From positions 26,478 to 90,477 of the forward strand of contig CACZDN010000027.1 of the NCBI GenBank assembly GCA_902779945.1: a stretch of DNA of 64,000 nt, given 5' to 3'. Origin of the DNA: Oscillospiraceae bacterium (GTDB lineage Bacteria > Bacillota > Clostridia > Oscillospirales > Oscillospiraceae). Each line of letters starts with the position of its first letter. Within the stretch, counting starts at the first letter, position 1. Below the pieces are notes generated by a model. It did no database searches. It was not told the origin of the DNA and saw only the letters and a list, made by a program, of their open reading frames with translations. The translations under genes and the position numbers were made by a program. Positions 3,911-62,188 of this stretch are shown piece after piece.

Positions 3911-4073
3911 AAGGCAATACCGCATAATTCGGCAAGAGCAGATCCTGAGAAAATTTGAGTTCTGATAAAGGCAGTTTTTCGCAGATGTACTTTGTGTACC
4001 TCAAGAAAAAGTGACGAAATCAGGGCACAAATTTTCCAGGAGATGCCGAAGGCGGATTGTGCGGTGTTGCCTT
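3911..4073 (+). repeat. MITE-like repeat, copy 1 (GTAC subfamily)
   Basis: 163 bp with ends AAGGCAATACCGCA and TGCGGTGTTGCCTT as terminal inverted repeats. The central hairpin is GTAC-TTTGT-GTAC. The right end lies inside the 3' end of the alpha/beta hydrolase gene and supplies its last ~16 codons and stop. Confidence 0.9.
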
Positions 4074-5054
4074 GAAAGCGTCGAGCTTGTTCACTGCCGC
4101 GCACACATATTCCTCCACCCAGTAGGTGCGGATGTGGCTGGCATTGGGGATTGTGTATAGTTCTTTGTCATCGGCATTGACCGCCTTAATGAAAGCGTCC
4201 ACGCTCATATACAGCGTGTCGGCCTTCTCGCCGCAGATCATCAGCAGCGGCTGGTCGATGAGATCCATGCGGTCCTCCACGTCGAATGCGATCAGCTTCA
4301 TGAACGATTCCGCCGTGTAGCTGCCCGTGGCGTTGGGGTGCCTGTGGGTCAGGCCATAATACTCAATGCCGTCCCGGTAAAGGGTGTTTTCCGGCAGGGT
4401 CAGCATCTGGGCACGCAGCTCCTCGTCGGTCTTGTCGGGAGGCAGGAAACCGATGTACTCCACCTCACCGCGCAGCTCTTTTGCCCTTGCTGCGGCCGCC
4501 TGACGCAGCCGTTTCTGCGCTCCTGCTTTGTCCGCGTCGTGGAAGCCGTTGCGGCGGACACGGCCGGAATTGAACATGGAGAGAGTCGCCACCGCCTTGA
4601 TGCGTTTGTCTGTCTGGGCGCAGGCCAGGGTGTATCCGCCGCCACCGCAGATGCCGAGGGCACCGATGCGTGAAAAGTCCACCTTGGGAAGCTGGGAGAG
4701 GTAGTCCACCATGCCGTTCACGTCCCCGATGCGGTTGGCGGGATAGTCCCGCAGTCGGGGCTCACCGCCGCTCTCCCCCTGATAACGGGCGTCACAGGCC
4801 AGTGTGATAAAGCCAAGCTCCGCAAGCCTTTGCGCATACAGGCCCGCCACCTGCTCCTTACAGCCGCCGTTGGGGTGGGCCACCGTGACGGCAGGATATT
4901 TTTTCTTGTTCTTCTCACTGTAATCCGCGGGCAGGTAGAGATTCGCCGCAGCCTCGATGCCGTCCACCGTGTAGCGCACGGGACGGATGTTGACTTTGCC
5001 GGGCTCGTTTGCCTCGATCGCCCCGCCGTAGATCAGTCCGAAAGGATTCGACAT
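4020..5054 (-). CDS. Alpha/beta hydrolase (dienelactone-hydrolase-like, Cys nucleophile), MITE-derived C-terminus
   Basis: 344 aa with an AAGGGGG ribosome site before ATG 5054. VAHPNGGCKEQV is the oxyanion region, GALGICGGGGY is the nucleophile elbow with Cys where Ser is usual, and ASHIRTYW carries the catalytic His. Paralogues at 11153 and 20244 share this layout. The ~16 residues after LDAFK (ATPHNPPSASPGKFVP) are encoded by the inserted repeat at 3911-4073, so the natural end was replaced. The catalytic His is upstream of the junction, so activity may be kept. It is the third gene after flavodoxins 5591 and 5068, 13 bp downstream of the latter. Confidence 0.87.
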   Translation of the reverse strand: MSNPFGLIYGGAIEANEPGKVNIRPVRYTVDGIEAAANLYLPADYSEKNKKKYPAVTVAHPNGGCKEQVAGLYAQRLAELGFITLACDARYQGESGGEPRLRDYPANRIGDVNGMVDYLSQLPKVDFSRIGALGICGGGGYTLACAQTDKRIKAVATLSMFNSGRVRRNGFHDADKAGAQKRLRQAAAARAKELRGEVEYIGFLPPDKTDEELRAQMLTLPENTLYRDGIEYYGLTHRHPNATGSYTAESFMKLIAFDVEDRMDLIDQPLLMICGEKADTLYMSVDAFIKAVNADDKELYTIPNASHIRTYWVEEYVCAAVNKLDAFKATPHNPPSASPGKFVP

Positions 5055-5067
5055 ATCCGTATCCCCC

Positions 5068-5556
5068 TTACTTTAATCCCAGTTTTTCTAGCCATTTGCT
5101 GATCGCTTTTGCATCGCCGCGTTCTGCGCTGCGCATCTCCATGGGCAGGCCGTCGAGCACACGGGCTTTGGGCTCCAATTGCTTGATCGTGCGGTAAGTT
5201 CCGCCGTCTTCGGAACCCATGTGGGTATTGAACGGAATAATGGTCTTGCCGGAAAAATCATACTTATCAAAGAAGGTGTACAGGATCATCGGGAAGGTGT
5301 ACCACCACATGGGGTAGCCCACTAAGATCGTGTCGTAGTCCTGGACAGGGATCTCGTTCTTGATAACCGGGCGGGCATTGCTGTCATGTTCCTGCTTGGC
5401 CAGCTTCGCGAGCTGGTTGTAATGATCCCGGTTGCTGTCGTAGGGCACAAGCGGCTCGATCTCCACAAGATCGGCGCCTGTCTGCTTTGCAATGATCTCG
5501 GCCATGTTCTTTGCCGTCCCGTATACGGAAAAATAAACAACAAGTGATTTGTTCAT
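5068..5556 (-). CDS. Flavodoxin
   Basis: 162 aa. LVVYFSVYGTAKNMAEII is the FMN phosphate loop. LVGYPMWWYTFPMILYTFF and GKTIIPFNTHMGS are the two further flavin loops of the Flavodoxin_4-type family, and the final helix KWLEKLGLK is intact. No signal peptide is present, so it is cytoplasmic. Gaps of 34 bp to the secreted flavodoxin and 13 bp to the hydrolase point to one operon. It probably donates electrons to, or itself reduces, small substrates in the LysR-linked pathway. Confidence 0.92.
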   Translation of the reverse strand: MNKSLVVYFSVYGTAKNMAEIIAKQTGADLVEIEPLVPYDSNRDHYNQLAKLAKQEHDSNARPVIKNEIPVQDYDTILVGYPMWWYTFPMILYTFFDKYDFSGKTIIPFNTHMGSEDGGTYRTIKQLEPKARVLDGLPMEMRSAERGDAKAISKWLEKLGLK

Positions 5557-5590
5557 TTTCGCTTCTCCACCATCATATCTTTGGTGATTA

Positions 5591-6232
5591 TTATTTCATC
5601 CAGTCCTGCGTATCAAGGTACTCCGTAAATTCTTTCTGAGCCGCCTCGTTGTCGATCATGGCGCTCAGGGAGTACTGGGCGAAGATCTCCATATCTGGCT
5701 GAAACTCTGCAAGCTCCTTCAGGATGCCGCTGTTGCCGCTTCCCCGGTTGATGCTGAAGTAAGCAAGCTGTTTGCCGGAGAGATCCACCTGCTGGAAGAA
5801 GCTGCGCACCGGCTGCGGCATCGTGTACCACCAGATTGGAGAGAGAAAATAGATCGTGTCGTACTCTTTCCATTCCGGCAGCGGATCACTAAAGCTGAAC
5901 TGTCTGTTTTCGTTTTTGTCCGTCTGTGCGCCGTCCACCATATCCTCAAACTTCGGCGCGTAGGGCTCTGTGATATGAAGGGCATAGACCTCGGCCCCGG
6001 TGCGCTCCTTGAGCATATCGGCCATCACCAGCACATTGCTGCGGTCACGGTAGCGCTCAGTCTCTGCGATGCTTGCCTGGCTTACGGCGTCGATGTCCAG
6101 TCCCTCGGTGTTGATGTTCTCGCTGTAATCAAAGTAGATGATCAAAGCCTTCTCCGGTTCGGCAGCTACGGCAGGGCTTGCGGCCAGAATGAGCGTCAGA
6201 ATAACAAGGCTTACAAGAATGATTTTTTTCAT
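5591..6232 (-). CDS. Exported flavodoxin-family protein
   Basis: 213 aa. MKKIILVSLVILTLILAASP followed by AVAAEP is a signal peptide with an Ala-x-Ala cleavage site. The mature part is flavodoxin-like (ALIIYFDYSENI, then FLSPIWWYTMPQPVRSFF and KQLAYFSINRGSGNSG). Flavodoxins are normally cytoplasmic, so an exported one suggests an extracytoplasmic flavin redox step. It is the first gene of the unit; the shared LysR-type promoter block lies at 6305-6346, about 75 bp upstream. Confidence 0.85.
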   Translation of the reverse strand: MKKIILVSLVILTLILAASPAVAAEPEKALIIYFDYSENINTEGLDIDAVSQASIAETERYRDRSNVLVMADMLKERTGAEVYALHITEPYAPKFEDMVDGAQTDKNENRQFSFSDPLPEWKEYDTIYFLSPIWWYTMPQPVRSFFQQVDLSGKQLAYFSINRGSGNSGILKELAEFQPDMEIFAQYSLSAMIDNEAAQKEFTEYLDTQDWMK

Positions 6233-6304
6233 GGGTATTTCCTCCTGTGAATCATAGATTTGTTTTTCCTGTCGTGTAAAAGTGTATCAGAAGAGCTTTC
6301 AAAT

Positions 6305-6346
6305 GTACAATGCCGATTGCGTATACTGCTATAAGTACAACTTATA
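6305..6346 (-). promoter_or_regulatory. Shared LysR-type promoter/operator block, copy A
   Basis: Plus-strand reading: GTACAATGCC, spacer, ATACTGC, then the palindrome TATAAGTACAACTTATA at 6330-6346 (TATAAGT-ACA-ACTTATA, perfect). Read on the minus strand, the T-N11-A type box lies upstream of a weak -35 and a TACATT -10. Nearly identical blocks stand at 9498, 11067 and 12079. Confidence 0.75.
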
Positions 6347-6398
6347 CTGAATGTTACTCCGCTTTGTTTCCCGATTCCCATTACATAGTACAATTTTC

Positions 6399-6427
6399 TT
6401 GCAATTATCTTTTCTATCCGGTATAAT
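6399..6427 (+). promoter_or_regulatory. Promoter of the divergent lysR gene
   Basis: TTGCAA (6399-6404), 17 bp, TATAAT (6422-6427), then a GAGGTG ribosome site before ATG 6461. It lies back to back with the operator block at 6305-6346, the usual LysR arrangement. Confidence 0.75.
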
Positions 6428-6460
6428 ACAATAAACAGACCGAATACTGAGGTGATCCTG

Positions 6461-7321
6461 ATGATTGAAATCTATCTGCTGGAGCAGTTGGAAGCCTTTG
6501 CGCGCTGCGGAACCTTGTCCGGTGCAGCAGAAGAGCTGCATTTAAGCCAGCCCGCGCTGACACGCTCCATGAAAAAGCTGGAGGAGTTGATCGGCGTTCC
6601 CCTCTTTGAGCGGCAGAAGAACAAGCTGGTACTCAACGAAAACGGGAAGCTCACCGCCGAGTATGCCCGCCGGGTACTGGAGCAGGATCGTGAGATCGCC
6701 GGACTTGTCCGGGCCTTTGACCGGCGCAATCATACGATCAGCATCGGCGGCTGTGCGCCGGTACCGGTACAGCAGCTCGTGCCGCAGGTCACCGCACTCT
6801 ATGAGGATATGACGGTCTCGCAGGAGGTTCACCCAGATGCGCCGCTGTTGGACGGTTTGCAGGACGGTACTTTCCAGTTGGTCATTCTTCATGAGGAGCC
6901 CGCCGATAAAGCACTGTATTGGGTGCCGTACGGGGAAGAAAAACTGTACATCGTTCTCCCGAAGGATCATCCGCTGGCTGGCCGTGAGGGCATCTGGCTG
7001 AAAGAACTGGAGAGCATGAACATCCTCCTGTTCAGTCAGATCGGTTTCTGGTATGAGCTGTGCGTCGATAAGATCCCCAATCCGCATTTTCTGCTGCAGA
7101 ACGATTTTGAAGCCTTCGGCGAGCTGATCAAGGCCTCCAACCTGCCTGTTTTCACCTCCAGTTATTTTATGGAACATGATCCGACGCCGGATTTCTACAC
7201 GGAGAATACCCGTGTGATCCTCCCCATTCTGGATCAAGAGGCTGACGTCCGCTATTATCTTGCCTGCAGGCTCGACGACAAAAAGCGCTTTAGCGCGCTG
7301 TTCAAAAGGATCTCGGGATAA
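6461..7321 (+). CDS. LysR-family transcriptional regulator
   Basis: 286 aa. The N-terminal winged helix reads LEQLEAFARCGTLSGAAEEL, then HLSQPALTRSMKKLEELIG, matching the LysR HTH signature. Residues ~90-286 form the periplasmic-binding-like effector domain. ATG 6461 after GAGGTGATCCTG is preferred to GTG 6452. It is transcribed divergently from the flavodoxin/hydrolase operon and is the obvious candidate to bind the four TATAA-N7-TTATA boxes. Its effector may be a substrate of the reductases or hydrolases. Confidence 0.92.
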   Translation: MIEIYLLEQLEAFARCGTLSGAAEELHLSQPALTRSMKKLEELIGVPLFERQKNKLVLNENGKLTAEYARRVLEQDREIAGLVRAFDRRNHTISIGGCAPVPVQQLVPQVTALYEDMTVSQEVHPDAPLLDGLQDGTFQLVILHEEPADKALYWVPYGEEKLYIVLPKDHPLAGREGIWLKELESMNILLFSQIGFWYELCVDKIPNPHFLLQNDFEAFGELIKASNLPVFTSSYFMEHDPTPDFYTENTRVILPILDQEADVRYYLACRLDDKKRFSALFKRISG

Positions 7322-7328
7322 AGAAGGG

Positions 7329-7472
7329 GCTGTCTCAAAATGCATGTTAACCCAAAACCGTAGGGGTCGATCCCCAGATCGACCCGTTGCATTACACACA
7401 TTGTCGTAAAACAGCGGGCCGATGAGGGCATCGGCCCCTACGATTTCGCATGGTTATGCATTTTGAGACAGC
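7329..7472. repeat. Inverted-repeat element containing GGTCGATCCCCAGATCGACC unit
   Basis: Ends GGCTGTCTCAAAATGCAT and ATGCATTTTGAGACAGC are inverted repeats about 110 bp apart. Inside lie two smaller palindromic units: a CGTAGGGGTCGATCCCCAG block (7359-7386) and GGGCCGATGAGGGCATCGGC. The first block recurs exactly at 41032-41059. It lies between two convergent genes, so it could also work as a bidirectional terminator, though no clear T-run is present. Confidence 0.6.
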
Positions 7473-7484
7473 ACGTTTATCATC

Positions 7485-8324
7485 TTAAATATCTTCTTTC
7501 AATTCCATCGTCGCGTAGGCTGCGACCATCTCCGGCGTCGCGTTATAGTAACGCACGCCCTTGTTGACCTTTGCGATTTCCGCCATATCCTCATCTGTCA
7601 GCTCAAAATCAAAGATATCGAGATTGTCACGGATGTGATCGGGATTCTTGGAGCCCGGGAAAATCACGTTGCCGCTCTGCACATGCCAGCGCAGGATGAT
7701 CTGGACGTTACTCTTGCCGTATTTCTCCGCGAGCTTTGTGAACACAGGTTCGTTCACCAGATTCTTATCGCCGTGTCCAAGGGGATACCAGGCCATCATC
7801 CCCATGCCGGTATCGCGCAGGAGCTTCTTCAGCTCATTCTGGGGATAGTAGGGATGCGCCTCCACCTGCACGATCTGGGGCTTGATTTCCGCGATTTCCA
7901 GCACTTCCCGGATCAGTTCTTCCGGGAAGTTGGAAAGGCCGATGGCTCTCACCTTGCCTTCTTTGTATGCCTTCTCCATCGCGCGATACCCGGCCTTCCA
8001 GTTGCCCGCGGGCTGATGGAGGAGCAGAAGGTCGATATAGCCCGTTCCGAGGCGCCCCAGCGTCTCATCCACAGCGGTCTCTTTTTCGTACACAGTGGGC
8101 CAGAGCTTGGTCACAAGGAAGATCTCCTCGCGGGCGACACCGCTCTTTTGGATGCCGCGGCCGGTGCCGCTCTCATTCATATAGCCGTTGGCCGTGTCAA
8201 TGAGCCGGATGCCGCTTTTCAGTGCACTCTCTACCGCTGCCTCTGCCTGATCCGGCGTCATCATAAACACGCCGATCCCCGCCATGGGCATTTCGATTCC
8301 GTTGTTGAGCCTTAAGCTTTCCAT
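7485..8324 (-). CDS. Aldo/keto reductase (2,5-diketogluconate reductase type)
   Basis: 279 aa, the full size of the short AKR group. RLIDTANGYMNE provides Asp and Tyr, LVTKLWP the Lys and LLLLHQP the His. IFPGSKNPDHIRDN is the NADPH 2'-phosphate loop. The start lies close behind a GGGGGAGG site. It follows the secreted hydrolase gene by ~45 bp in the unit driven from the block at 9498. It likely reduces an aldehyde or keto group using NADPH in the cytoplasm. Confidence 0.92.
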   Translation of the reverse strand: MESLRLNNGIEMPMAGIGVFMMTPDQAEAAVESALKSGIRLIDTANGYMNESGTGRGIQKSGVAREEIFLVTKLWPTVYEKETAVDETLGRLGTGYIDLLLLHQPAGNWKAGYRAMEKAYKEGKVRAIGLSNFPEELIREVLEIAEIKPQIVQVEAHPYYPQNELKKLLRDTGMGMMAWYPLGHGDKNLVNEPVFTKLAEKYGKSNVQIILRWHVQSGNVIFPGSKNPDHIRDNLDIFDFELTDEDMAEIAKVNKGVRYYNATPEMVAAYATMELKEDI

Positions 8325-8369
8325 TTTAGTCCTCCCCCAAATTTCTGTTATGGTATTTTTTCTATAATT

Positions 8370-9443: not shown

Positions 9444-9497
9444 TTGAATCAGCTCCTTATTTGATCTGTGTTTATTCTACCTGACCGGGTCGGAAAT

Positions 9498-9542: not shown

Positions 9543-10352
9543 TCAATGCTTGTCAAACAGCCAGCCCATGATCTTCTCATCCTTTGCAAACGCCATTCCC
9601 CCGCCATGCTGATCGGTATAGCCCCGCTGTGTGAAGTACGCCTGATCCTTTACGTCCAGCACAACAAGCTTGTCGATCTCTTCATCGCTCAGGCCCTGTT
9701 GCTCATACAGTTCACGAAGCTGTTCGGCCGCATTTTTCATGGAATCCGAGCCGTAATAGCTGTCCTGCTCCCCTGTTGCCAGATATACAGGCGTCCTTGC
9801 ATCAGCCAGTGTCTCCAGATCTCCGTCCCACTGGGAGGACACCATGAGGAAGGCTGCGTACAGCTCCGGCCGCATCCCCATCACAAGGGAGCCGGTCTCT
9901 CCGCCGCCGGAGTAGCCCTCCAGGTAAACCCGATCGGGGTCAATGTTGCAGGCTTCCATCAGGTATTCCGTGAGCGCGATGGTCTGACGCGCCGAGGTCT
10001 CGCGCCAGTCGTTAAGCTGCGGAGAGATCACGATCATCTTTTCGTTCCAGCCGATTGCCTCCGGGCCGAAGTCCTCCACCATGTTGGCCCCCACGCCATG
10101 AAAGTACAGCCCTTCCCAGCCGGGCAGCGTGATAAACAGCGCGTACGGTTCCCTGCCGTCATAGGAATCCGGGATATAGCTGCTGTAATGAATATCCCCC
10201 AGCTTGGAATGATAAATGTTGTCATTCACAAAGCCGCGCTGTGTCTGTGTCCCGCAGGTGATGGAAGCGCGGTCGGTTTCCGCAGAAGCCGCAGCGCAGC
10301 CCGTGAGCATGAGCGCAAGGACGAAGGCAGAAATCATAACGGAAATCTTCAT
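9543..10352 (-). CDS. Lipoprotein esterase (PHB-depolymerase/feruloyl-esterase-like)
   Basis: 269 aa. The lipobox LTGC at residues 16-19, after a hydrophobic stretch, marks a membrane-anchored lipoprotein. FITLPGWEG is the oxyanion region, LEGYSGGGETG the nucleophile elbow, and DQHGGGMAF carries the His. Its start overlaps the stop of the flavodoxin gene by 4 bp (ATGA), so the two are translationally coupled. It probably cleaves an ester outside the cell membrane. Confidence 0.85.
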   Translation of the reverse strand: MKISVMISAFVLALMLTGCAAASAETDRASITCGTQTQRGFVNDNIYHSKLGDIHYSSYIPDSYDGREPYALFITLPGWEGLYFHGVGANMVEDFGPEAIGWNEKMIVISPQLNDWRETSARQTIALTEYLMEACNIDPDRVYLEGYSGGGETGSLVMGMRPELYAAFLMVSSQWDGDLETLADARTPVYLATGEQDSYYGSDSMKNAAEQLRELYEQQGLSDEEIDKLVVLDVKDQAYFTQRGYTDQHGGGMAFAKDEKIMGWLFDKH

Positions 10353-11152: not shown

Positions 11153-12022
11153 TTACAGGTTCTTTGCGAAGAAGGGCAGGATATAGTCGAAGGCCTCAGA
11201 GACGAAGGGGGCCAGATCATACATGTCAAAGTGGCTGGCTTCAGGGATCACGTGCATCTCCTTGTTGCCGGGCACAGCATTAAACACGTCCTCGGAGGAC
11301 GGCTTCGACCAAGCATTCTCGCCGGAGATCACGCAGTAGGGCTTGGTCATTTCCTTCATGATGTTGGGGACATTGTACTTGATGAGCTCCAGCTGGCTCC
11401 AGGCTACGACCTGATTCGACCAGCGCGGATGAGTGCCGCGGGAGGAATAATAGTAGGCAGCGCCCTCGTCAAAAGCACGGGGCATGAAGTTAAGGAACAT
11501 CATCTCGCCCTCGCCCTTGTCATAGGCTTCCTTTGCGGCTACGACCTCTGCCTCGGGTTTAAAGAAGCCCATCATGGGAGAGGTGGAAATATCCGCGATG
11601 GCAGGAACGATGGCGGTGACAGCCTTCAGCCTGGGTTCCTTCACCCCGGCCACGGACATATACGAACCGGAACCGCAGATGCCAAGGCCGCCGATGCGTT
11701 CGCTGTCCACATAGGGCAGGCTGCAAAGGTAGTCCACCGCGCCTTCGATATCACTCTCTTTTACGTCCGGCAGTTCCTGACCGCGGGGTAGGCCCTCGCT
11801 CTCTCCAAAGTAGGAGCCGTCGAACACCAGCGTCACATAGCCGTCCTCGGTCAGACGCTCGGCGTAGACCGACTGCGCCTGCTCCTTGACAGAGAGCATC
11901 GGCCCGGTCACGACAACAGCGGGATAGTTTTTGCTGAGATCAAAAGGTTCGGGAATACGCAGCAGCCCTGCAAGGCGCAGGTTCAGCTGCTTGTTCATAA
12001 ATACAACTTTCTGAGTTTCCAT
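11153..12022 (-). CDS. Alpha/beta hydrolase (dienelactone-hydrolase-like, Cys nucleophile)
   Basis: 289 aa from ATG 12022, which follows AGGAGGCTTTCATC. The longer open frame to 12091 would run into the promoter block. VVTGPMLSVKEQ is the oxyanion region, GGLGICGSGSY the nucleophile elbow with Cys, and EASHFDMYD the His. It is a paralogue of 4020-5054 and 20244-21263 and is the only one of the three with a natural C-terminus beside the shared LysR block. It is a single-gene unit with its own terminator. Confidence 0.88.
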   Translation of the reverse strand: METQKVVFMNKQLNLRLAGLLRIPEPFDLSKNYPAVVVTGPMLSVKEQAQSVYAERLTEDGYVTLVFDGSYFGESEGLPRGQELPDVKESDIEGAVDYLCSLPYVDSERIGGLGICGSGSYMSVAGVKEPRLKAVTAIVPAIADISTSPMMGFFKPEAEVVAAKEAYDKGEGEMMFLNFMPRAFDEGAAYYYSSRGTHPRWSNQVVAWSQLELIKYNVPNIMKEMTKPYCVISGENAWSKPSSEDVFNAVPGNKEMHVIPEASHFDMYDLAPFVSEAFDYILPFFAKNL

Positions 12023-17488: not shown

Positions 17489-17651
17489 AAGGCAACACCG
17501 CACAATTCGGCGAGAGCAAATTCCGAGAAAAATTGGGTTCTGACGATGGCATTTTTTTGCAGGAATACTTTGTGTATTGCAAGAAAAAGTGACGAAGTCA
17601 GGGCGCAATTTTTCCGGGAGGCGCCGATGGCGGATTGTGCGGTGTTGCCTT
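17489..17651 (+). repeat. MITE-like repeat, copy 2 (full length, ATAC subfamily)
   Basis: 163 bp with perfect 14-bp ends AAGGCAACACCGCA / TGCGGTGTTGCCTT and flanking TT/AA, so TA is present on both sides. It ends 3 bp before the first possible ATG of the CsoR-like gene and therefore forms its 5' leader. Confidence 0.93.
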
Positions 17652-19090: not shown

Positions 19091-19708
19091 TCACTGACTT
19101 ATGGCAATACCGCATAATTCGGCAAGAGCAGATCCTGAGAAAATTTGGGTTCTGATAAAGGCACTTTTTCGCAGATGTACTTTGTGTACCTCAAGAACCT
19201 GCCCGACGGCAGGATGCTCCGGCCTCTCCCCGGCTGCCGTGACGCCGCCCATGAAGACAGTCCCGGCAAGGCGCGCCCGCTCGAAGCATTCGACCCAGCC
19301 CTCAAGGCCGCTGACGGCGCGCTGCGGGACATGCTCCTCATCCTCGGCGGCAGCGGTCAGCAGATACACGTCGCGAAAAGTGTAATCGCTCGGAAAGAGC
19401 GGATTGAGCCGGTCGAGCAGGGTCTTGAGCTGACCCGACATCTCATAGTAATAGATCGGCGTGGCGAAAACCAGCACGTCAGCATGGAGCGCCTTTTGGC
19501 AAATCTCATCCGCATCGTCGCGGATCACGCAGCGCAGCTTCTCCTGGCACACAAAGCAGCCCCGGCAGAAGTTCACCGTCCTGCCGCGAAGGGAGACCAC
19601 TTCCGTCTCGTGGCCGGCGGCCTGCGCACCTTCGGCAAAGGCTTCTGCAAGAGCTTCCGAGTTGCTGTGCGCCCGAGGGCTTGTCGATACGATCAATACT
19701 TTTTTCAT
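19091..19708 (-). CDS. Flavodoxin family protein (WrbA/NADPH-FMN reductase), C-terminus replaced by a MITE fragment
   Basis: 205 aa. VLIVSTSPRAHSNSEALAEA is the FMN phosphate loop, FCRGCFVCQEKLRCVIRDDA the Cys-containing loop of this subgroup and VFATPIYYYEMSGQLKTLLD the second flavin loop. From about residue 175 (after EHPAVGQVLE) the reading enters a partial MITE (VHKVHLRKSAFIRTQIF...). The last helix of the family is lost, and the element itself lacks its right half, so a deletion followed insertion. It may be inactive. It is the last gene of the 21492 unit. Confidence 0.75.
   Translation of the reverse strand: MKKVLIVSTSPRAHSNSEALAEAFAEGAQAAGHETEVVSLRGRTVNFCRGCFVCQEKLRCVIRDDADEICQKALHADVLVFATPIYYYEMSGQLKTLLDRLNPLFPSDYTFRDVYLLTAAAEDEEHVPQRAVSGLEGWVECFERARLAGTVFMGGVTAAGERPEHPAVGQVLEVHKVHLRKSAFIRTQIFSGSALAELCGIAISQ
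19101..19197 (+). repeat. MITE-like repeat, copy 3 (left half only)
   Basis: It starts TTATGGCAATACCGCATAAT and stops after GTACTTTGTGTACCTCAAGA. It is joined directly to flavodoxin coding sequence. The right terminal repeat is absent. Confidence 0.85.
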
Positions 19709-22686: not shown

Positions 22687-22799
22687 AGGCAACACCGCAT
22701 AATTCGGCGAGAGCGAATCCTGAGAAAATTTGGGTTCTGATGAAGGCATTTTTTTGCAGGAATACTTTGTGTATTTCAAGAAAAATGCGGTGTTGCCTT
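22687..22799 (+). repeat. MITE-like repeat, copy 4 (internal deletion)
   Basis: Both terminal repeats are present (AGGCAACACCGCA, TGCGGTGTTGCCTT), but about 50 bp after the central hairpin are lost. The flanks are TTC on both sides rather than TA. Confidence 0.88.
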
Positions 22800-25291: not shown

Positions 25292-25413
25292 AAGGCAGCA
25301 CCGCATAATTCGGCAAGAGCAGATCCTGAGAAAATTTGGGTTCTGATGAAGGCAGTTTTTTGCAGGAATACTTTGTGTATTGCAAGAAAAAGTGACGTTG
25401 TGCGGTGTTGCTT
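25292..25413 (+). repeat. MITE-like repeat, copy 5 (internal deletion)
   Basis: AAGGCAGCACCGCATAAT to TGCGGTGTTGCTTT, flanked by TT and AA. About 40 bp are missing after AAAAAGTGACG. It lies 64 bp upstream of the VTC gene. Confidence 0.88.
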
Positions 25414-26224: not shown

Positions 26225-26876
26225 TTCGATCCTGACCGGGAGCTTTTCGGTCGGACAGTATCTGCTCAGCCTGCTCTTTGCCGGGCTGTGCGGCGTGATC
26301 ACCGCACTTGTGCTGAGCCGCGAGAGCAATGCCACCCGCAGCTTTTTGAGCTCTCTGGTCGTGCTGCCGATCATCGTCACCACGGTGATTCTGATGGTCA
26401 ACGACAACGTGGGCACCGGCATCGCCGTGGCGGGTGCCTTCTCGCTGGTGCGTTTTCGCTCGGCGGCGGGGAAAGCCAGGGATATATCCGCGATCTTCCT
26501 GGTCATGACCGCAGGTCTCACCTGCGCGGCCGGATACGGCGCTGTCGCGCTGCTGTTCACACTCCTCGCGTCCGGCGTCATGCTCCTGCTCTCCCGGGTT
26601 CCGATGAGCTGCGAGCGCTTTGTACAGCTTCACATCACGGTTCCCGAATCGCTGCACTTTGCCGACGCCTTTGACGATCTGTTCGAGCAGTACACGAGGA
26701 GCCGGAAGCTCGTGAGGGCCAGGACCTCCAATATGGGTAGTCTGTATAAGCTGGATTACAAAATTGAGATGAAAGACCCCGCCGCCGCGCAGGAATTTCT
26801 GGACGCCCTGCGCTGCCGGAACGGAAACCTTGAAATTGCGATTCTGAATGAAACCGAAGGAGGAGAAGAATTATGA
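26208..26876 (+). CDS. DUF4956 membrane protein
   Basis: 222 aa from ATG 26208 after AGAAGGAGG. Four membrane segments fill the first ~130 residues; GIAVAGAFSLVRFRSAAGKA, then RDISAIFLVMTAGL, is the DUF4956 signature. A cytoplasmic domain follows (~140-222). This family is a constant partner of bacterial VTC proteins and may move or sense the polymer. Confidence 0.9.
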   Translation: MSSIFSSILTGSFSVGQYLLSLLFAGLCGVITALVLSRESNATRSFLSSLVVLPIIVTTVILMVNDNVGTGIAVAGAFSLVRFRSAAGKARDISAIFLVMTAGLTCAAGYGAVALLFTLLASGVMLLLSRVPMSCERFVQLHITVPESLHFADAFDDLFEQYTRSRKLVRARTSNMGSLYKLDYKIEMKDPAAAQEFLDALRCRNGNLEIAILNETEGGEEL

Positions 26877-28402
26877 AAAAGTCTTTGAAGAACACACTGG
26901 TGTGCGCGCTCGCGCTCTTAATGCCGCTCGGGTGCACCGCCGCCCCGGCAAGCGCGGCGGAGAGTCTTCCCGCCGCATCTGTCTCATCGGAAGCTGTACA
27001 GTCAGCCGTGCCGGATGCCGCAGTCTCCGACCGTGACGCCTCGGGCGGCTACGACGTCTCCGCGGCGGTGGCGCTCTCCCCGGACGGCGATCTGACGGTC
27101 AGGTCGGCCGGTACCTATATCCTCTCCGGCAATTATGAGGGCATCATCGTTGTCGAGGCCGGCGGTGAGGACAAGGTCCAGCTCGTGCTGGAGAACGCGA
27201 CGATCACCAACGAAAACGGCCCCGCGTTCTATGTCCGCAGCGCGGATAAGGTCTTTCTCACGGCAGCAGAGGGCACGGTCAATGTGATCTCCGACGGCGC
27301 GGATTATTCGCTTGCCGAGGAAGATACGACGCTGGACGCGGCTGTTTTCAGCAGAGCCGATCTCACGGTCAACGGCTCCGGCAGGCTGACGATCAACGGC
27401 AACTGTAAGCACGCGGTCGTCTCCAAGGATGACCTCGTTGTCACGGCAAAGGATCTCGTCGTGAACGCGCAAAACGTCGGTCTGAACGGCAAGGACTCCG
27501 TCACGCTCTCGGGGGCGGCTGTCAGTATCACGGCGGGCAGCGACGGTGTTCGCGCGGAAAATGACACGGACGCGGGCAAGGGCTTCGTCTCTGTCACGGA
27601 CTCAACGCTCACCATCGTATCCGGCAAAGACGGCATCCAGGCCGAGACGGTTTTCGCGGCGGAAAACGCGGACATCAGCATTACCTCCGGCGGCGGAAGC
27701 AGCGCGCACAGCGGCAGCACCGGGGAATCCTTCAAGGGCATCAAGGCCGGAGACGACATCACGATCAGCGGCGGCTCCTATCGTATCGACTCCCTCGACG
27801 ACGCCATCCACACGGATGCCTCGATCCTCATCGGCGACGGCGCGTTTACGCTCCTCAGCCCGGACGACGGCATCCACGCAGACGAAAAGGTTACGATCTC
27901 CGGCGGCACGCTGAACATCACGGCGAACGAGGGAATTGAGGGAAGCTATATTCTCATCAGCGGCGGAGACATCACGATCGCGGCCTCGGGCGACGGCATC
28001 AATGCGGCGCACAAGTCCTCTGCCCTTACCCCGACCGTGGAGATCACCGGCGGCTCCGTTTCCGTCACGATGGGCGCGGGAGACACCGACGGCATCGACT
28101 CCAACGGCAACATCATCATCAGCGGAGGAACGATCAGCATCAACGGCCCATCCGCCTTTGACTACGACGGCAGCGCGAGCTTCACCGGCGGGACGATCTA
28201 CATCAACGGCCAGCAGGTCAGCGCGATCCCGAATCAGATGATGGGCCGCGGCCAGGGCGGCTTCGGCGGTCAGGGCGGCTTCGGCGGCCGGGGCGGCTTC
28301 GGCGGCCAGGGCGGCTTCGACGGCCAGGGCGGCTTCGGCGGCCAGGGCGGCTTCGATGGTCAGGGCGGCTTCGGCGGAGGCCGCGGGGGTGTACGCCCCT
28401 GA
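26873..28402 (+). CDS. Secreted DUF4353 carbohydrate-binding-domain protein with Gly-rich tail
   Basis: 509 aa. N-terminal export signal with LMPLGC, possibly a lipobox. Residues ~50-440 are repeats with ITISGG-type turns (DDITISGGSYRIDSLDDAI), the right-handed beta-helix pattern of DUF4353. Residues ~456-509 are ~9 units of a GQGGFG hexapeptide. The ATG overlaps the DUF4956 stop. In related operons it accompanies VTC and CotH-like kinases; a cell-surface or matrix role is plausible. Confidence 0.87.
   Translation: MKKSLKNTLVCALALLMPLGCTAAPASAAESLPAASVSSEAVQSAVPDAAVSDRDASGGYDVSAAVALSPDGDLTVRSAGTYILSGNYEGIIVVEAGGEDKVQLVLENATITNENGPAFYVRSADKVFLTAAEGTVNVISDGADYSLAEEDTTLDAAVFSRADLTVNGSGRLTINGNCKHAVVSKDDLVVTAKDLVVNAQNVGLNGKDSVTLSGAAVSITAGSDGVRAENDTDAGKGFVSVTDSTLTIVSGKDGIQAETVFAAENADISITSGGGSSAHSGSTGESFKGIKAGDDITISGGSYRIDSLDDAIHTDASILIGDGAFTLLSPDDGIHADEKVTISGGTLNITANEGIEGSYILISGGDITIAASGDGINAAHKSSALTPTVEITGGSVSVTMGAGDTDGIDSNGNIIISGGTISINGPSAFDYDGSASFTGGTIYINGQQVSAIPNQMMGRGQGGFGGQGGFGGRGGFGGQGGFDGQGGFGGQGGFDGQGGFGGGRGGVRP
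28250..28384 (+). repeat. 18-bp tandem repeat coding Gly-Gln-Gly-Gly-Phe-Gly/Asp
   Basis: GGCCAGGGCGGCTTCGGC-type units repeat about eight times in the 3' end of the DUF4353 gene with small changes (GGT/GGC, GAC/GGC). Such arrays change length by slippage. Confidence 0.85.
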
Positions 28403-30654: not shown

Positions 30655-30817
30655 AGGGCAGCACCGCACAATGCGCCTGCGGCATCTCCTGGAAAATTTG
30701 CGCCCTGATTTCGTCACTTATTCTTGAGGTACACAAAGTACATCTGCGAAAAAGCGCCTTTATCAGAACCCAAATTTTCTCAGGATCTGTTCTTGCCGAA
30801 TTATGCGGTATTGCCCT
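30655..30817 (-). repeat. MITE-like repeat, copy 6 (GTAC subfamily)
   Basis: Left end AGGGCAGCACCGCACAAT, right end ATTATGCGGTATTGCCCT, with TA on both outer sides. The element is inverted relative to copy 1. It lies between the response regulator and the DUF1269 gene. Confidence 0.9.
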
Positions 30818-33929: not shown

Positions 33930-34089
33930 AAGGCAATACCGCATAATTCGGCAAGAGCAGATCCTGAGAAAAATTGGGTTCTGATGAAGATTTTTTTGCG
34001 GGAATACTTTGTGTATTGCAAGAAAAAGGCTCAAAATCAGAGCGCAATCTTCCGGGAGACGCCGACGGCGGATTGTGCGGTGTTGCCTT
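33930..34089 (+). repeat. MITE-like repeat, copy 7
   Basis: AAGGCAATACCGCATAAT to TGCGGTGTTGCCTT with TA on both sides. The central hairpin is ATAC-TTTGT-GTAT. The right end overlaps the stop codon of the NTF2-like gene. Confidence 0.92.
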
Positions 34090-36579: not shown

Positions 36580-36742
36580 AAGGCAACACCGCGCGATCCG
36601 CCACCGACGTCTCCCGGAAAAACTGTGTCCTGATTTTAAGCCTTTTCTTGCAATACACGAAGTATTCCTTCGGAAAACTGCCATCGTCAGAACCCAAATT
36701 TTTCTCAGGATTCGCTCTCGGCGAATTGTGCGGTGTTGCCCT
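36580..36742 (-). repeat. MITE-like repeat, copy 8
   Basis: AAGGCAACACCGCGCGAT to AATTGTGCGGTGTTGCCCT. It has no TA pair at the ends (GCA / TGA). It supplies the last residues and stop of the DUF5655-like gene. Confidence 0.9.
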
Positions 36743-37474: not shown

Positions 37475-37583
37475 GGTGTATCTCTCCGTTCACTATCAAA
37501 TGCGCAAATACGGTGTCCGGAAAAGGGAATTTGCGTCAAAAGGTGTCTGGCAGGATATATTTGTCCTGCTTTTTCTTATATCT

Positions 37584-37746
37584 AAGGCAACACCGCATAA
37601 TTCGGCTAGAGCGAATCCAGAGAAAATTCGGGTTCTGATGAAGGCATTTTTTTGCAGGAATACTTTGTGTATTTCAAGAAAAAGTGACAAAATCAGAGCG
37701 CGATTTTTCCAGGAGGCGCCGAAGGCGGATTGTGCGGTGTTGCCTT
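37584..37746 (+). repeat. MITE-like repeat, copy 9
   Basis: Full-length copy with perfect AAGGCAACACCGCA/TGCGGTGTTGCCTT ends and TA on both sides. ATAC subfamily. Confidence 0.93.
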
Positions 37747-37751
37747 AAGCT

Positions 37752-38125
37752 GCTCCCATGTAATGGCACTGATCTGCCTCTTATACTATTCCCTGCTAGA
37801 AAGCTGACTTGGCATTTCGAGCAGAAATTGCGCCAGACAAGGCAGCTTTCGCAGAGCATAATGGAGATATATGGTCAAGAAAGCTAACGCAGTATGGCAT
37901 AATTCCTGCCGGAAGGACTGTCAGATTCCTATTAGGGCAACACCGCATAATTCGGCAAGAGCAGATCCTGAGAAAATTTGGGTTCTGATAAAGGCACTTT
38001 TTCGCAGATGTACTTTGTGTACCTCAAGAACAAGAAAAAGTGACGAAATCAGGACACATATTTTCCAGGAGATGCCGCAGGCGGATTATGCGGTATTGCC
38101 TTAGGGGATAGTATTACATGGGAGC
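37752..38125. repeat. Region bounded by 13-bp inverted repeats that contains a MITE
   Basis: GCTCCCATGTAAT (37752-37764) is repeated in inverse at 38113-38125 (ATTACATGGGAGC). Between them are ~170 bp of non-coding sequence and the MITE at 37934. Removing the MITE leaves ~200 bp, the size of another mobile hairpin element. Confidence 0.5.
37934..38102 (+). repeat. MITE-like repeat, copy 10 (GTAC subfamily)
   Basis: AGGGCAACACCGCATAAT to TTATGCGGTATTGCCTT, TA on both sides. It carries a 6-bp duplication (AAGAAC) after the central hairpin. Confidence 0.92.
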
Positions 38126-38132
38126 AATTCTA

Positions 38133-38513
38133 TCATTCCATATCTGAGCCGTATTTTTTCATGTGCGCCTTTATCGCTGCGAAAGATGTATCGCTGATAT
38201 AATGCTCGATCCGACAGGCGTCATCTGCCGCAGTTTTCTCGTCTACGCCAAGTTTCATGAGAAGCCTGGTAAAAATGACATGCCGTTCATAGATACTCCT
38301 GGCCTTTTCCTCGCCTGTTTCTGTCAGCTTGATATAGCCGGAATCATCTATCCGAACAAATCCTTCTTTTTTCAGCAAACTGACAGCCCGGCTGACAGAT
38401 GGTTTGGAGTAGCCCATGTATTCGCCGACGTCTATTCCGCGAACACACGATGACTTTTTTGAAAGAATATAGATCGTCTCGAGGTACATTTCCCCGGATT
38501 CCTGCATGGCCAT
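38133..38513 (-). CDS. DtxR/MntR-family metal-dependent regulator
   Basis: 126 aa. GEMYLETIYILSKKSSCVRG, then IDVGEYMGYSKPSVSRAVSL, is the DtxR winged helix. The dimerisation domain follows with ERHVIFTRLLMKLGV and CRIEHYISD, which has the His/Glu metal ligands. No SH3-like third domain, as in MntR. It is the last gene of the metal island and probably senses Fe(II) or Mn(II). Confidence 0.92.
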   Translation of the reverse strand: MAMQESGEMYLETIYILSKKSSCVRGIDVGEYMGYSKPSVSRAVSLLKKEGFVRIDDSGYIKLTETGEEKARSIYERHVIFTRLLMKLGVDEKTAADDACRIEHYISDTSFAAIKAHMKKYGSDME

Positions 38514-53973: not shown

Positions 53974-54104
53974 AAGGCAACACCGCATAATTCGGCGAGA
54001 GCGAATCCTGAGAAAATTTGGGTTCTGATGAAGGCATTTTTTTGCAGGAATACTTTGTGTATTTCAAGAAAAGGCGCCGATGGCGGATTATGCGGTGTTG
54101 CCTT
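53974..54104 (+). repeat. MITE-like repeat, copy 11 (internal deletion) at the feo promoter
   Basis: AAGGCAACACCGCATAAT to TTATGCGGTGTTGCCTT, flanked by TT/AA. About 30 bp are lost next to the central hairpin. TTGCCTTAAGGCAA at the left junction looks like two element tips back to back. Confidence 0.92.
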
Positions 54105-57055: not shown

Positions 57056-57178
57056 GTCCGCGCCTCTTACCATTCTTCATTTATTATGAGTTGACTTCTT
57101 TTATCTTGAACACACATCTGCGACTGCTTCCGGCTCCCGGTCCCCCAGGATCCAATGTACCTTGTATCCATCAAGTAA

Positions 57179-57194
57179 GTTAGCGATAACTAAC
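57179..57194. promoter_or_regulatory. GTTAG-N6-CTAAC box 3
   Basis: GTTAGCGATAACTAAC, extended to AAGTTAG...CTAACTT (57177-57196), followed by TTTATTATATA. It lies upstream of the DUF6796-like gene. Confidence 0.7.
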
Positions 57195-57266
57195 TTTATT
57201 ATATACATTCTATTTCTTCTCGTCAATGAATACTGTTAAAAATATTTATTGCGAAGTTTAAAGAAA

Positions 57267-57294
57267 CCGTTGCAAAACGAGAGTTTTGCAACGG
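57267..57294 (-). terminator. Terminator of the ABC exporter operon
   Basis: CCGTTGCAAAAC-GAGA-GTTTTGCAACGG perfect 12-bp stem; on the minus strand TTTCTTT follows. Confidence 0.88.
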
Positions 57295-57325
57295 TCCTAT
57301 TTGTTATCAAGGATTCATTCCTCTT

Positions 57326-59065: not shown

Positions 59066-60803
59066 TGTCTTTCACCTCCATATGTGCGTTCCACATCTTC
59101 TCATAGAGACCGTGCCTTCCGAGCAGTTCTTTGTGCGTCCCGGCATCGTCGATCTGCCCGTCTTTGATGACATAGATCTTGTCTGCGTCCATGACGGTGG
59201 AGAGCCGGTGGGCAATGACGATCAGCGTCTTGCCCTCGGTGAGCTTCGAGACGGAGCGCTGGATGACGGCCTCGTTCTCCGGGTCGGTGTAGGCGGTGGC
59301 CTCGTCGAGGATGACGATGGGCGCCGCCTTCAGCATGGCGCGGGCGATGGAGATGCGCTGCCGCTCGCCGCCGGAGAGGTGGCCCCCGGAGGAGCCCACC
59401 AGCGTGTCGTAGCCCTTTTCCAGGCCGAGAATAAAGTCGTGGCAGCCGGACTGCCGGGCGGCCTCCTCCACTTCCGCGTCCGTGGCGGTGGGGCGGCCGA
59501 TGCGGATGTTTTCCCGCACGCTCATGTTGAAAAGATAGTTGTCCTGGGAGACGAAGGCGATCTTGTCGGCGTAGGCCTCCTGGGGGATCTGGCGGATGTC
59601 CGTTCCGCCCAGGCTGATGCTGCCGCTCGTCACATCCCAGAGGGAAGCGATGAGCCTTGCGATGGTGCTCTTGCCGCTGCCGCTGGGGCCGACGAGGGCC
59701 ACAAAGCTGCCCTCCGGGATCGCCATAGAGACGCCGTGCAGCACCTCTTTCTCCTGATAGGCAAAACGCACGTCCTTCAGCTCAAGATCGTTTCTCTCCG
59801 GCACTTCCCCCTCCGCCGGGCGGATCATCTCCGGGGCGTCCAGAATGGCCCGCACTTCGCCGAAGATGGTGCCCATGGTGCGAAAATCGTCGGAGTAGCT
59901 CATCATGGTGATGATGGGTGTGATGACGCCCACCGAGAGGATGATGACGGTCACGAAGTCCTGCGCGCTCAGCGAGCCGTTTTTCACCAGCAGACCGCCG
60001 ATCGGCAGCACGGAGACCATAGTAGCCGGCATGAGCACCATGGCAAAGGTAAAGGGGATGATGCTGGCGCGCATCCAGTCGATGAAGCTGTGGGCCGCCT
60101 CATAGGCGTCGTGTACGAAGCGCTCATAGCTGGATTTGGTCTTGCCGAAGACCTTGATGACCTGGATGCCGCCGATATACTCCACCGCCGTGTCGTTGAG
60201 GGCCTTGGTGGCCGTAACCGTGCGCTGATAGAACTTGGCGCTGCCCGCCATCATGAACACATAGCAGAACATCCCCAGCGGCACGGTGGCGAGCGAGGCC
60301 AGACCCATGCGCCAGTCCACGGTGAAGATATAGACCAGAATGATGATGGGGATCAGCAGATTGGCCGTAAACTCCGGCACAATATGGGCCAGGGTTGTCT
60401 CGATGGAGTCGATGCGTTCGATGAGGGTGTTTTTCAGCGCGCCGGAGCTCTGCTCCAGTACGGCGCCAAGCGGCATCCGCGTCAGCTTCTCCAAACATTT
60501 CTTGCGGATCTCGCCCAGCACAGCGAAGGTAGCCTTGTGGCTGGTGGTGGTGGACAGAGCATGAAACAGCACCCGTCCCAGCCAGAGCGCCGCCATGATC
60601 AGGCAGCGGCTCAGGTAAAAAGGAAAGTCCATCACGCCGTCCATCAGTCCCTGTACGACGCCGATCACCACAAAGTACGGCGCCAGGGAAAAAGCCACCC
60701 CGATGATCGCCAGGGCCACGCTCAGGATATACTGTCCCCCGTGGTCGCCTGTTTGACCCAGCACCCAGGCCATGGGTGACTGGGTCTTTTTCGTTTTCTG
60801 CAT
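59058..60803 (-). CDS. ABC half-exporter (membrane + ATPase), first of pair
   Basis: 581 aa from ATG 60803 after GGGAGG; the frame to 60887 covers the operator. GPSGSGKSTIARLIASLW, GGHLSGGERQRISIARAML and PIVILDEATAYTDPENEAVI are all intact, so both ATP sites of the dimer may work. The 16-bp TTAGCTAA palindrome lies 19 bp upstream. Confidence 0.93.
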   Translation of the reverse strand: MQKTKKTQSPMAWVLGQTGDHGGQYILSVALAIIGVAFSLAPYFVVIGVVQGLMDGVMDFPFYLSRCLIMAALWLGRVLFHALSTTTSHKATFAVLGEIRKKCLEKLTRMPLGAVLEQSSGALKNTLIERIDSIETTLAHIVPEFTANLLIPIIILVYIFTVDWRMGLASLATVPLGMFCYVFMMAGSAKFYQRTVTATKALNDTAVEYIGGIQVIKVFGKTKSSYERFVHDAYEAAHSFIDWMRASIIPFTFAMVLMPATMVSVLPIGGLLVKNGSLSAQDFVTVIILSVGVITPIITMMSYSDDFRTMGTIFGEVRAILDAPEMIRPAEGEVPERNDLELKDVRFAYQEKEVLHGVSMAIPEGSFVALVGPSGSGKSTIARLIASLWDVTSGSISLGGTDIRQIPQEAYADKIAFVSQDNYLFNMSVRENIRIGRPTATDAEVEEAARQSGCHDFILGLEKGYDTLVGSSGGHLSGGERQRISIARAMLKAAPIVILDEATAYTDPENEAVIQRSVSKLTEGKTLIVIAHRLSTVMDADKIYVIKDGQIDDAGTHKELLGRHGLYEKMWNAHMEVKDNG

Positions 60804-60821
60804 AAGCAAACCTCCCGTGTT

Positions 60822-60858
60822 TTTGTTAGCTAACAAAGTCATTCTCTCGTTAACTAAC
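60822..60858. promoter_or_regulatory. Operator region of the ABC exporter pair
   Basis: TTTGTTAGCTAACAAA (60822-60837) is a perfect 16-bp palindrome of GTTAG and CTAAC without a spacer. GTTAACTAAC follows at 60849. Likely bound by the TetR protein encoded just upstream. Confidence 0.7.
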
Positions 60859-60873
60859 CTTAAAAATAGCCAT

Positions 60874-60902
60874 CGCCTATCCCCCAAGGAGAGGGATAGG
60901 CG
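60874..60902 (-). terminator. Terminator of the 60927 tetR gene
   Basis: CGCCTATCCC and GGGATAGGCG around a short loop; on the minus strand GGCTATTTTT follows. Confidence 0.8.
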
Positions 60903-60926
60903 GTGTTTACGAAAGGATCGTTCCGG

Positions 60927-61535
60927 CTAAAAACCCATTAGTTTTTTCCAGCCGGGAAGGAAAAAGGCTTCAATGGTGTCCAGACAGCGGATTGCATCCT
61001 CAGGCGGATAGCTGTGTATGACCGGTTCAAAAAGCGCTGTCGAATAAGCGGATAGCAGCAGATGCAGGGCCTCGGGATCAATGTCACAGACCGGATAGCC
61101 CAATTTCCGAAGTACAGGCAGATAGGAAAGAAATTGCTTCTGTCCTGTCTCCGTCAGGTCGTGCAGGAAGTTCTCGTATTTCGTCCCCCCGGATTTGGCG
61201 ACCAGGAGGATATAGTCCTCCATGTGGGGATAGACGACCTCGCGCATCATGTCGGTCCAGGAATCCCGCCACTGGGGTTCCCGACTGCTCCGGGCATCGT
61301 TCACATAGCGTTCAACATGCTCTTTCAGCCAGATGTTCAGCCGCTCGATGGAGGGAGAGACCAGTTGGTCGAACAGATCCTCTTTATCCCGGCAATGGCG
61401 GTAGAGCCCCGCTGCCGTCATGCCGCAGCGCTCCCCAATGGAGCGCATGGAGGCTTTCTCAAATCCAAATGTGAGAAATTCCTCCCGCGCCGCAGCCATC
61501 AGTTTGATATGATTGGCGCTTTTGTCCCGTGGCAT
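60927..61535 (-). CDS. TetR-family regulator
   Basis: 202 aa. HIKLMAAAREEFLTFGFEKA, then SMRSIGERCGMTAAGLYRHC, is the TetR HTH. Box 4 (GTTAG-N6-CTAAC) lies 21 bp upstream. It precedes the ABC exporter pair and probably represses it and itself. Confidence 0.93.
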   Translation of the reverse strand: MPRDKSANHIKLMAAAREEFLTFGFEKASMRSIGERCGMTAAGLYRHCRDKEDLFDQLVSPSIERLNIWLKEHVERYVNDARSSREPQWRDSWTDMMREVVYPHMEDYILLVAKSGGTKYENFLHDLTETGQKQFLSYLPVLRKLGYPVCDIDPEALHLLLSAYSTALFEPVIHSYPPEDAIRCLDTIEAFFLPGWKKLMGF

Positions 61536-61555
61536 ATCTTTGCTCCATTCTTGTG

Positions 61556-61571
61556 GTTAGCCGTGACTAAC
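61556..61571. promoter_or_regulatory. GTTAG-N6-CTAAC box 4
   Basis: GTTAGCCGTGACTAAC, 21 bp upstream of the tetR start, next to ATATGTTAAC. Confidence 0.7.
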
Positions 61572-61599
61572 TATATGTTAACAGAATGAACGGTTTTTG

Positions 61600-61893
61600 T
61601 CAAGGGAAGATTCTGTCATTGAAATTTGCATATGGCAAGCTTCACTGGTATAACGATGTGACTGGCCAGTTCACCGGCTTGTCCCCGCCTGATATGTGGT
61701 AATTTCTGGACTTGCCCAAACGATGGATTTGTGCTATCGTCTTGTCTTGTGGTTTGCGTCACTGACGTATTTGATGATCACGAGGAGAGTGAAAGTCCTA
61801 TGAATTCTGCCGGAGCCGCAGAAACGCAAGGCCAGCAGCCCCCTGAGGATGATTTCATCTATGAGCTGCTGGCCGAGATGAGACTGCCATAGC
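61600..61893 (+). pseudogene. Remnant of an unrecognised protein, C-terminal end
   Basis: A plus-strand frame ends ...MNSAGAAETQGQQPPEDDFI, then YELLAEMRLP and TAG at 61891-61893. No start and no ribosome site are seen. The acidic tail looks like the end of a mobile-element protein. The rest of this ~400-bp stretch shows nothing clear. Confidence 0.35.
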
Positions 61894-61987
61894 CGATTCC
61901 TTCGACAACAGCCTCCGCGCGTACAATACTGACACAACCATGAGCCGGTACCGTTTACTCGGTACCAGCTCTATTTTTTCTTTACCT

Positions 61988-62188
61988 AAGGCAACACCGC
62001 ACAATTCGCCTTCAGCGCCTCCTGGAAAAATTGCGCTCTGATTTTGTCACTTTTTCTTGAAATACACAAAGTATTCCTGCAAAAAAATGCCTTCATCAGA
62101 ACCCAAATTTTCTCAGGATTCGCTCTCGCTTCATCAGAACCCAAATTTTCTCAGGATTCGCTCTCGCCGAATTATGCGGTGTTGCCCT
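61988..62188 (-). repeat. MITE-like repeat, copy 12 (with internal 36-bp duplication)
   Basis: AAGGCAACACCGCACAAT to TTATGCGGTGTTGCCCT, TA on both sides. A 36-bp segment (CTTCATCAGAACCCAAATTT...CGCTCTCG) is tandemly doubled. It truncates the integrase gene at its N-terminus. Confidence 0.92.

Follow-up and report, generated by a model that had tools for sequence, protein, structure and literature searches.

The 64,000 nt stretch of Oscillospiraceae DNA analysed here (assembly GCA_902779945.1, contig CACZDN010000027.1, positions 26,478 to 90,477; 'the window') contains twelve copies of a quasi-palindromic repeat of around 159 bp, which we read as a miniature inverted-repeat transposable element (MITE) that would be non-autonomous. 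It shares its terminal repeats with an IS5-family transposon, most copies with two recognisable ends are flanked by an exact 4 bp duplication, often resembling the tetramer YTAR, and its single strand would form a fold that is probably bound by a protein and kept as the ends of the element change. We put the probability of this reading, taken as a whole, at about 0.68. Comparison shows the 159 bp body to be a single hairpin whose length is almost fixed and in which the apical stem-loop and two internal loops are conserved. The source is a draft genome of 2.87 Mb in 39 contigs, 85.8% complete, in which the window lies on contig 27; below, 'own genome' means this assembly, L numbers denote fetched stretches or loci, and G numbers denote the genomes compared.

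Copies of the element in the window

The ends of the element read GGCAACACCGC...GCGGTGTTGCC and form terminal inverted repeats of 11-12 bp which, on an element as short as 159 bp, are the features by which a MITE is recognised. All twelve copies that an earlier note on this DNA had located were recovered, eleven with both ends and one as a half copy; three of them (copies 6, 8 and 12, placed in that note at 30655, 36580 and 61988) are in reverse orientation. The 14-mer end, allowing up to three mismatches, has 26 matches in the window as against 5.55 expected by chance, a number reached by none of 100 shuffles. Two subfamilies can be told apart by eye, A (AATACC...GTACTTTGTGTACCTC) and G (AACACC...AATACTTTGTGTATTTC). 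The copies, with the four bases flanking them on the left and right, and a relative with other ends are as follows.

Copy 1, 3913..4071, forward strand: 159 bp, family I, subfamily A; flanks TTAA/TTGA
Copy 2, 17491..17649, forward strand: 159 bp; flanks TTAA/TTAA
Copy 3, 19103..19196 (end approximate), forward strand: half copy with left arm and apical hairpin, lacking the right arm; possible assembly artefact
Copy 4, 22688..22797, forward strand: 110 bp, most of the right arm gone; flanks TTCA/TTCA
Copy 5, 25294..25412, forward strand: 119 bp, most of the right arm gone; flanks TTAA/TTAA; empty sites in relatives
Copy 6, 30657..30815, reverse strand: 159 bp; flanks ATAG/CTAT (2/4)
Copy 7, 33932..34087, forward strand: 156 bp; flanks TTAA/TTAG (3/4)
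Copy 8, 36582..36740, reverse strand: 159 bp; flanks CAAA/CTGA (2/4)
Copy 9, 37586..37744, forward strand: 159 bp, used as the query; flanks CTAA/TTAA
Copy 10, 37936..38100, forward strand: 165 bp, with 6 additional bases 3' of the apical hairpin; flanks TTAG/TTAG
Copy 11, 53976..54102, forward strand: 127 bp, right arm partly gone; flanks TTAA/TTAA
Copy 12, 61990..62186, reverse strand: 197 bp, with a 38 bp tandem duplication in the contig-downstream arm; flanks CTAA/CTAA
Family III relative, 3708..3868, reverse strand: 161 bp, same hairpin core with different terminal repeats

Across the 2.87 Mb of the own genome the left-end pattern (up to three mismatches) has 189 matches, 124 on the plus and 65 on the minus strand, and the reversed-pattern control has none. 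The genome-wide left-end rate is thus one per ~15 kb, as against the density of one copy per ~5 kb put forward in the earlier note. This rate predicts 4.2 copies per 64 kb as against the twelve present (Poisson p = 0.0014), a value that is optimistic because the window was flagged for its copies, and because some copies need not match the left-end pattern.

Target site duplication and insertion sites

An nhmmer search of the window and 20 fetched stretches (L122-L141; 334,954 bases in all) gave 193 hits, which were merged into 97 fragments. Duplications were sought in the 55 own-genome fragments with two recognisable ends, the other 42 being skipped; among these 55, the right end is spurious in L124:15617 at least. 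The four bases directly outside GGC...GCC are identical on the two sides in 33 of the 55, with three bases agreeing in 9, two in 5, one in 5 and none in 3. When left and right flanks were paired at random in 2000 shuffles, four-base matches averaged 6.2 and never exceeded 14, and each of 15 other registers yielded 0 or 1 copies matching at all four bases. As 24 of the 33 exact duplications are non-palindromic, the match represents a direct repeat rather than an extension of the terminal repeat. TTAA (9), TTAG (6) and ATAG (3) are the commonest, and six of the eleven two-ended copies in the window (2, 4, 5, 10, 11 and 12) carry an exact duplication.

The duplication given for IS5 in the excerpted text of PMC10359306 is YTAR. 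Tetramers of this form flank 28/55 copies on the left and 23/55 on the right, against a background of 0.12% in the sequence searched; a strict fit is seen in 16 of the 33 exact duplications and is absent from the other 17. YTAR tetramers number 394 in the 334,954 bases searched, some nine times fewer than base composition predicts by a hand-calculated expectation, so that targets for the element would be scarce.

The earlier note had found TA on both sides of at least nine copies, as expected of mobilisation by an IS630/Tc1-mariner transposase. We count eight of the twelve (2, 5, 6, 7, 9, 10, 11 and 12), and TA stands on both sides of 32 of the 55 copies, as a TA-specific enzyme would leave it; but the match extends to 4 bp, with TA falling within YTAR, and 12 further copies duplicate another dinucleotide. 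Given also that no IS630 transposase domain was found in the own genome and that the transposons sharing the element's ends belong to IS5 (see below), TA-specific mobilisation is very improbable. Nor does TA behave as the tip of the terminal repeat, the other suggestion made: among 17 copies without TA on the left, the dinucleotide recurs as a direct repeat in 12 (AA in 7, TT in 2, TC in 2, GA in 1), in inverted form in none and in neither way in 5. Copy 4 does lack TA, as had been noted, but TTCA lies on both sides of it, which points to a 4 bp duplication.

Filled and empty sites were compared, as the earlier note had proposed, at copy 5, which is situated between TTTTCTTTAA and TTTAAGGTTGG. 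The corresponding position is free of the element, with a single TTTAA or TTTTAA, in L006, L007, L008, L093 and L094. A sixth locus, L005, has a single TTAA preceded by TTGCC, resembling the right end of the element; it could hence hold a remnant, and is taken as an empty site with this reservation. In L005 and L006 the alignment of both flanks reaches to within ~20 bases of the element, with 31 and 34 bases between them as against ~135 in the window, whereas in L007, L008, L093 and L094 the right flank alone aligns well. Insertion is also evident in L123 and L129, where one copy lies within another with TTAG on both sides, the consensus of the outer copy reading TTGG. Mobility, as first proposed, is thus borne out by the terminal repeats, exact duplications, nested insertions, empty sites and number of genomic matches. 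L007 additionally contains, near the position orthologous to copy 3, a mini-element of ~40 bp (5291-5355) that is composed of family I ends and the inner start of an L162-type insertion sequence (IS) and has another solo end beside it.

The putative mobilising transposase

A search of 37 genomes with PF13358 (DDE_3, IS630) found matches in four, with none in the own genome, and none of six DDE_3 loci fetched from relatives carries an inverted pair of the element's ends. PF01609 was detected in 18 of 60 relatives, the own genome not being one of the 18, and among the loci fetched there were transposons with the ends of the element in species of the same genus. In L162 (G012), family I ends at 401 and 2166 flank a 378-codon open frame, with CTAA and TTAA outside them; L163 (G015) has family III ends at 1008 and 2230 with TTAA on both sides, and L164 (G006) has one end of this kind. 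The proteins of L162 and L163 belong to the IS5 family NF033581 (E 3e-99 and 4e-88), and also match PF01609 and PF05598. The L162 protein has counterparts at E < 1e-80 in G012, G006 and G015 alone among 60 genomes, with no match in the own genome, and its type of left end occurs in G012 and, with a mismatch, in G024. The full transposase element suggested in the earlier note therefore exists in same-genus species, but was not found in the own genome at its present completeness.

As no such transposase was found in the own genome, we infer the mobilising enzyme from the shared ends in other species: an IS5 transposase of the DDE type would insert the element at YTAR-like sites and duplicate 4 bp. 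The enzyme of the own genome may lie in the missing 14%, or may have been lost.

A hairpin conserved across the order

The plus strand of copy 9 is predicted to fold as RNA at -86.3 kcal/mol (z -10.5), and the other strand at -57.6 (z -6.7). A DNA search with this copy matched 23 of 60 genomes including the own one; apart from G042, all are of the same genus. In several genomes the match ends short of the element's ends, and 20 such places, once fetched, proved to have the same hairpin with other ends, including those of families II (AGTAAACGATGATTAAATCGGC...) and III (GGAAACGCTGATTAAATCG...). An alignment of families I-III (A2; 22 sequences) is almost gapless, and RNAalifold predicts 56 pairs in it, 40 of them changed on both sides. 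By eye, a frame through the core is open in families I and II and broken in family III.

A covariance model of the 93 nt core (R1), built from 24 cores and having 93 columns, matched 62 of 245 genomes of the order, own included, in 35 of 127 genera; the alignments span positions 1-93 throughout, among the matches listed. Copy numbers from this model are lower bounds, as filters were strict and 14-17 candidates were scored per genome. In a phylum-wide sample it matched 3/299 genomes: the own genome, G060 of the same family and G486 from outside the class.

Forty further loci were fetched, and 51 model-matched loci gave 58 matches, of which 57 are distinct sequences (alignment A4). Pairing is seen in 89.5% of 1799 cells, as against 61.9% in shuffled and 40-49% in slid alignments; 30 of 32 pairs have changed on both sides, and the covariation score is 0.665, compared with 0.18 shuffled and at most 0.17 slid. 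Loop columns 27, 29, 42-44, 72 and 85-87, on both sides of helix 2, are conserved (1.1-1.7 bits), and helix 2 is nearly free in sequence, with 15/16 columns at 0.1-0.85 bits. Covariation and conserved loops, the marks of a structured RNA, are hence both present, although template switching and the fitting of the alignment to the model qualify this result. The modelled strand folds better in 54/57 sequences, an orientation that was itself set by the model.

The ends vary widely. A script found terminal repeats (at least 11/14 complementary) in 28 of 50 loci, and 21 of these 28 elements are 158-164 bp long, even though 115-270 was permitted. Duplications match at four bases in at most five of the 28 and at three in at most four, these being upper counts, as the script favours a matching duplication among equal ends. 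That the hairpin core is common to many relatives while the ends differ suggests that evolution keeps the fold, which may be selected as RNA or as single-stranded DNA. The folded single strand, probably RNA from read-through, would most likely be bound by a putative protein of the host or the element, and this binding would preserve the fold while the terminal repeats change along with the transposase. A wider proposal, to which we would give slightly less than even odds, is that these are an order-wide class of mobile hairpins of ~160 nt, whose fold, length and apical motif are selected via the putative protein and whose ends, taken up from or co-evolving with different IS5-type transposons, aid their spread.

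The arms might instead be kept complementary by template-switch correction at quasi-palindromes alone, leaving an ordinary IS5 MITE with a functionless fold. Template switching can create and maintain hairpins (excerpt of PMC8794818), and transcripts of prokaryotic MITEs typically form stable stem-loops (excerpt of PMC10969869). However, internal loops with mismatches are found at the same positions throughout the order and vary less than helix 2 next to them, and the apical stem retains both sequence and orientation despite the varying ends. Pure correction would erase such loops, so that template switching is unlikely to be the whole story, though it is an account to be taken seriously.

Variants of the module were also seen. 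G273 (L247-L250) has elements of ~282 bp, in copies up to 99.6% identical, that combine the module with a second hairpin in a predicted junction fold; seven matches from the A4 stage are a second module adjoining the first. G042, G066 and G085 each have a single match, within one conserved 8 kb neighbourhood.

No Rfam family reached its gathering score in the whole window, in window positions 37500-38200 or in 20 of the 40 order-wide loci, and microRNA matches, which fell far below their gathering scores, were dismissed. Likenesses to the hammerhead and to attC were dismissed on inspection by eye, the former because CUGAUGA is not conserved and the latter because no attC core sites were seen. 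A match to a T-box leader, under its gathering score (65.1 of 93 bits), lies near an element copy at L237 435-605. Plasmids and phages gave no match to copy 9; the exact apical 25-mer occurs in one viral contig, L256 of IMG/VR (10050-10074).

Short copies and contig orientation

Full-length copies are evenly divided between the strands, with 21 plus and 20 minus. Truncated plus copies lose the right arm just past the apical hairpin (27 left-only and 5/5 short two-ended copies), and truncated minus copies lose the left arm (8 right-only and 5/5 short two-ended), the ten short two-ended copies being assigned by eye. The missing arm is hence the contig-downstream one in 45/54 truncated copies (p = 7e-7). 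Of the nine exceptions, two are outer pieces of nested copies, four adjoin another copy (one being the copy 12 duplication) and three are degenerate and low-scoring (20.8-29.6 bits). Exact end hits are likewise skewed, by hand counts, at 71 plus to 28 minus for the left end and 36 to 53 for the right (p = 1.8e-5). Choosing the stretches by their left-end hits favours left-only copies, yet does not account for the link with strand, and GC skew and coding strand vary from stretch to stretch.

No biological process could know the orientation of a contig, and we therefore think that these truncations arose at long hairpins as artefacts of assembly or sequencing; short copies 3, 4, 5 and 11 may be of this kind, as may the tandem duplication of copy 12. 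Genuine internal-deletion derivatives were considered and are doubted, as arm loss tracks contig orientation. A different assembly, G035, has three partial copies at the ends of contigs. Inverted duplicates are a known source of nanopore errors (excerpt of PMC7229812). Loss of a hairpin arm according to contig orientation calls for caution when repeats are studied in draft assemblies.

Gene context and opposing evidence

Several observations weigh against the reading preferred here. With regard to mobilisation, 22 of the 55 copies are without a four-base match, the own genome (85.8% complete) contains no IS5-type transposase, DDE_3 or L162-type left end, and G012, which carries L162, has only two weak matches to the element. 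With regard to the fold, A4 was fitted to the same model by which its members were found, template switching is likewise able to keep hairpin arms complementary, and mean conservation over all columns is alike for unpaired and paired positions (0.87 and 0.82 bits). A conservative test of strand from GU versus AC pairs, counting pairs with at least half Watson-Crick, is weak, at 53 versus 19 cells and 29 versus 16 columns (p = 0.07), with GU exceeding AC in 13/22 sequences; counts on the energy-derived structure (A2 87/20; own copies 214/26; A4 122/50) were set aside in its favour. By crude calling of open reading frames (ORFs), the element has no orientation bias relative to neighbouring ORFs (19, 18, 17 and 15 of 69 placed fragments), and this counts against a role in host mRNA.

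This last point bears on a further explanation, in which copies are kept because the fold acts on host genes, as a hairpin that regulates them in cis or stabilises their mRNA, in the manner of ERIC or Correia elements. The strong fold on one strand would suit it, and such effects are reviewed for both elements in the excerpt of PMC10969869. Set against this are the lack of orientation bias, the 24 of 97 fragments that lie inside called ORFs, and the 15 of 36 same-genus genomes (57-97% complete) without a match to copy 9; we consider it a distinctly doubtful explanation. Because no orientation bias was seen, it seems equally likely that any role of the fold is in the spread of the element itself or in the host.

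As to the surroundings, the protein encoded at 26873-28402 has its nearest named relatives in four Clostridiales/Ruminococcaceae assemblies, at 74-84% identity. A second dispersed palindromic repeat, with ends GGGCTGTCTCAAAATGCAT...ATGCATTTTGAGACAGC, lies at 7321-7480 of the window and at 11552-11703 and 14870-15021 of L007, its copies being up to 98% identical in the relative. A hairpin-like sequence, GAAGGATC(T)...GATCCTTCG, adjoins element copies in L124 (~9786), L126 (~15360) and L128 (~820-900), and is perhaps a third repeat family.

Comparison with known systems

No description of this family was found in the open-access literature, nor an Rfam family. The element resembles the IS5 family (NF033581) and its MITEs in having terminal repeats in common with same-genus IS5 transposons and a 4 bp duplication of YTAR type; it differs in that inspection by eye shows no more than the outer 12-17 bp in common with the IS5 transposons found, and no hairpin body in them. 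The other likenesses, to ERIC, Correia/NEMIS and RUP, are of description rather than sequence. ERIC is an imperfect palindrome that folds as RNA, but it is known from other bacteria and duplicates TA, as against 4 bp here. RUP of the pneumococcus is small, has TA at its ends and is mobilised in trans by IS630-Spn1; the element here differs in its 4 bp duplication and its ends of IS5 type. ERIC is likewise a multicopy palindromic repeat that affects transcripts, and Correia/NEMIS a short palindromic mobile repeat with transcripts cleavable by RNase III (both in the excerpt of PMC10969869); the latter also belongs to other bacteria. MITEs with folded transcripts are already known (same excerpt), and the excerpted text of PMC2674063 describes conserved RNA motifs with compensatory changes in Borrelia plasmid repeats.

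The contrast with MITEs in general lies in what is conserved. They are usually thought to be kept by the ends that a transposase reads, the middle being free to change, whereas here the reverse is seen, with the middle kept across the order and the ends changing. Hence, if the fold is indeed selected, these elements would make up a family of mobile structured RNAs or single-stranded DNA hairpins, with a putative binding partner that can be sought directly.

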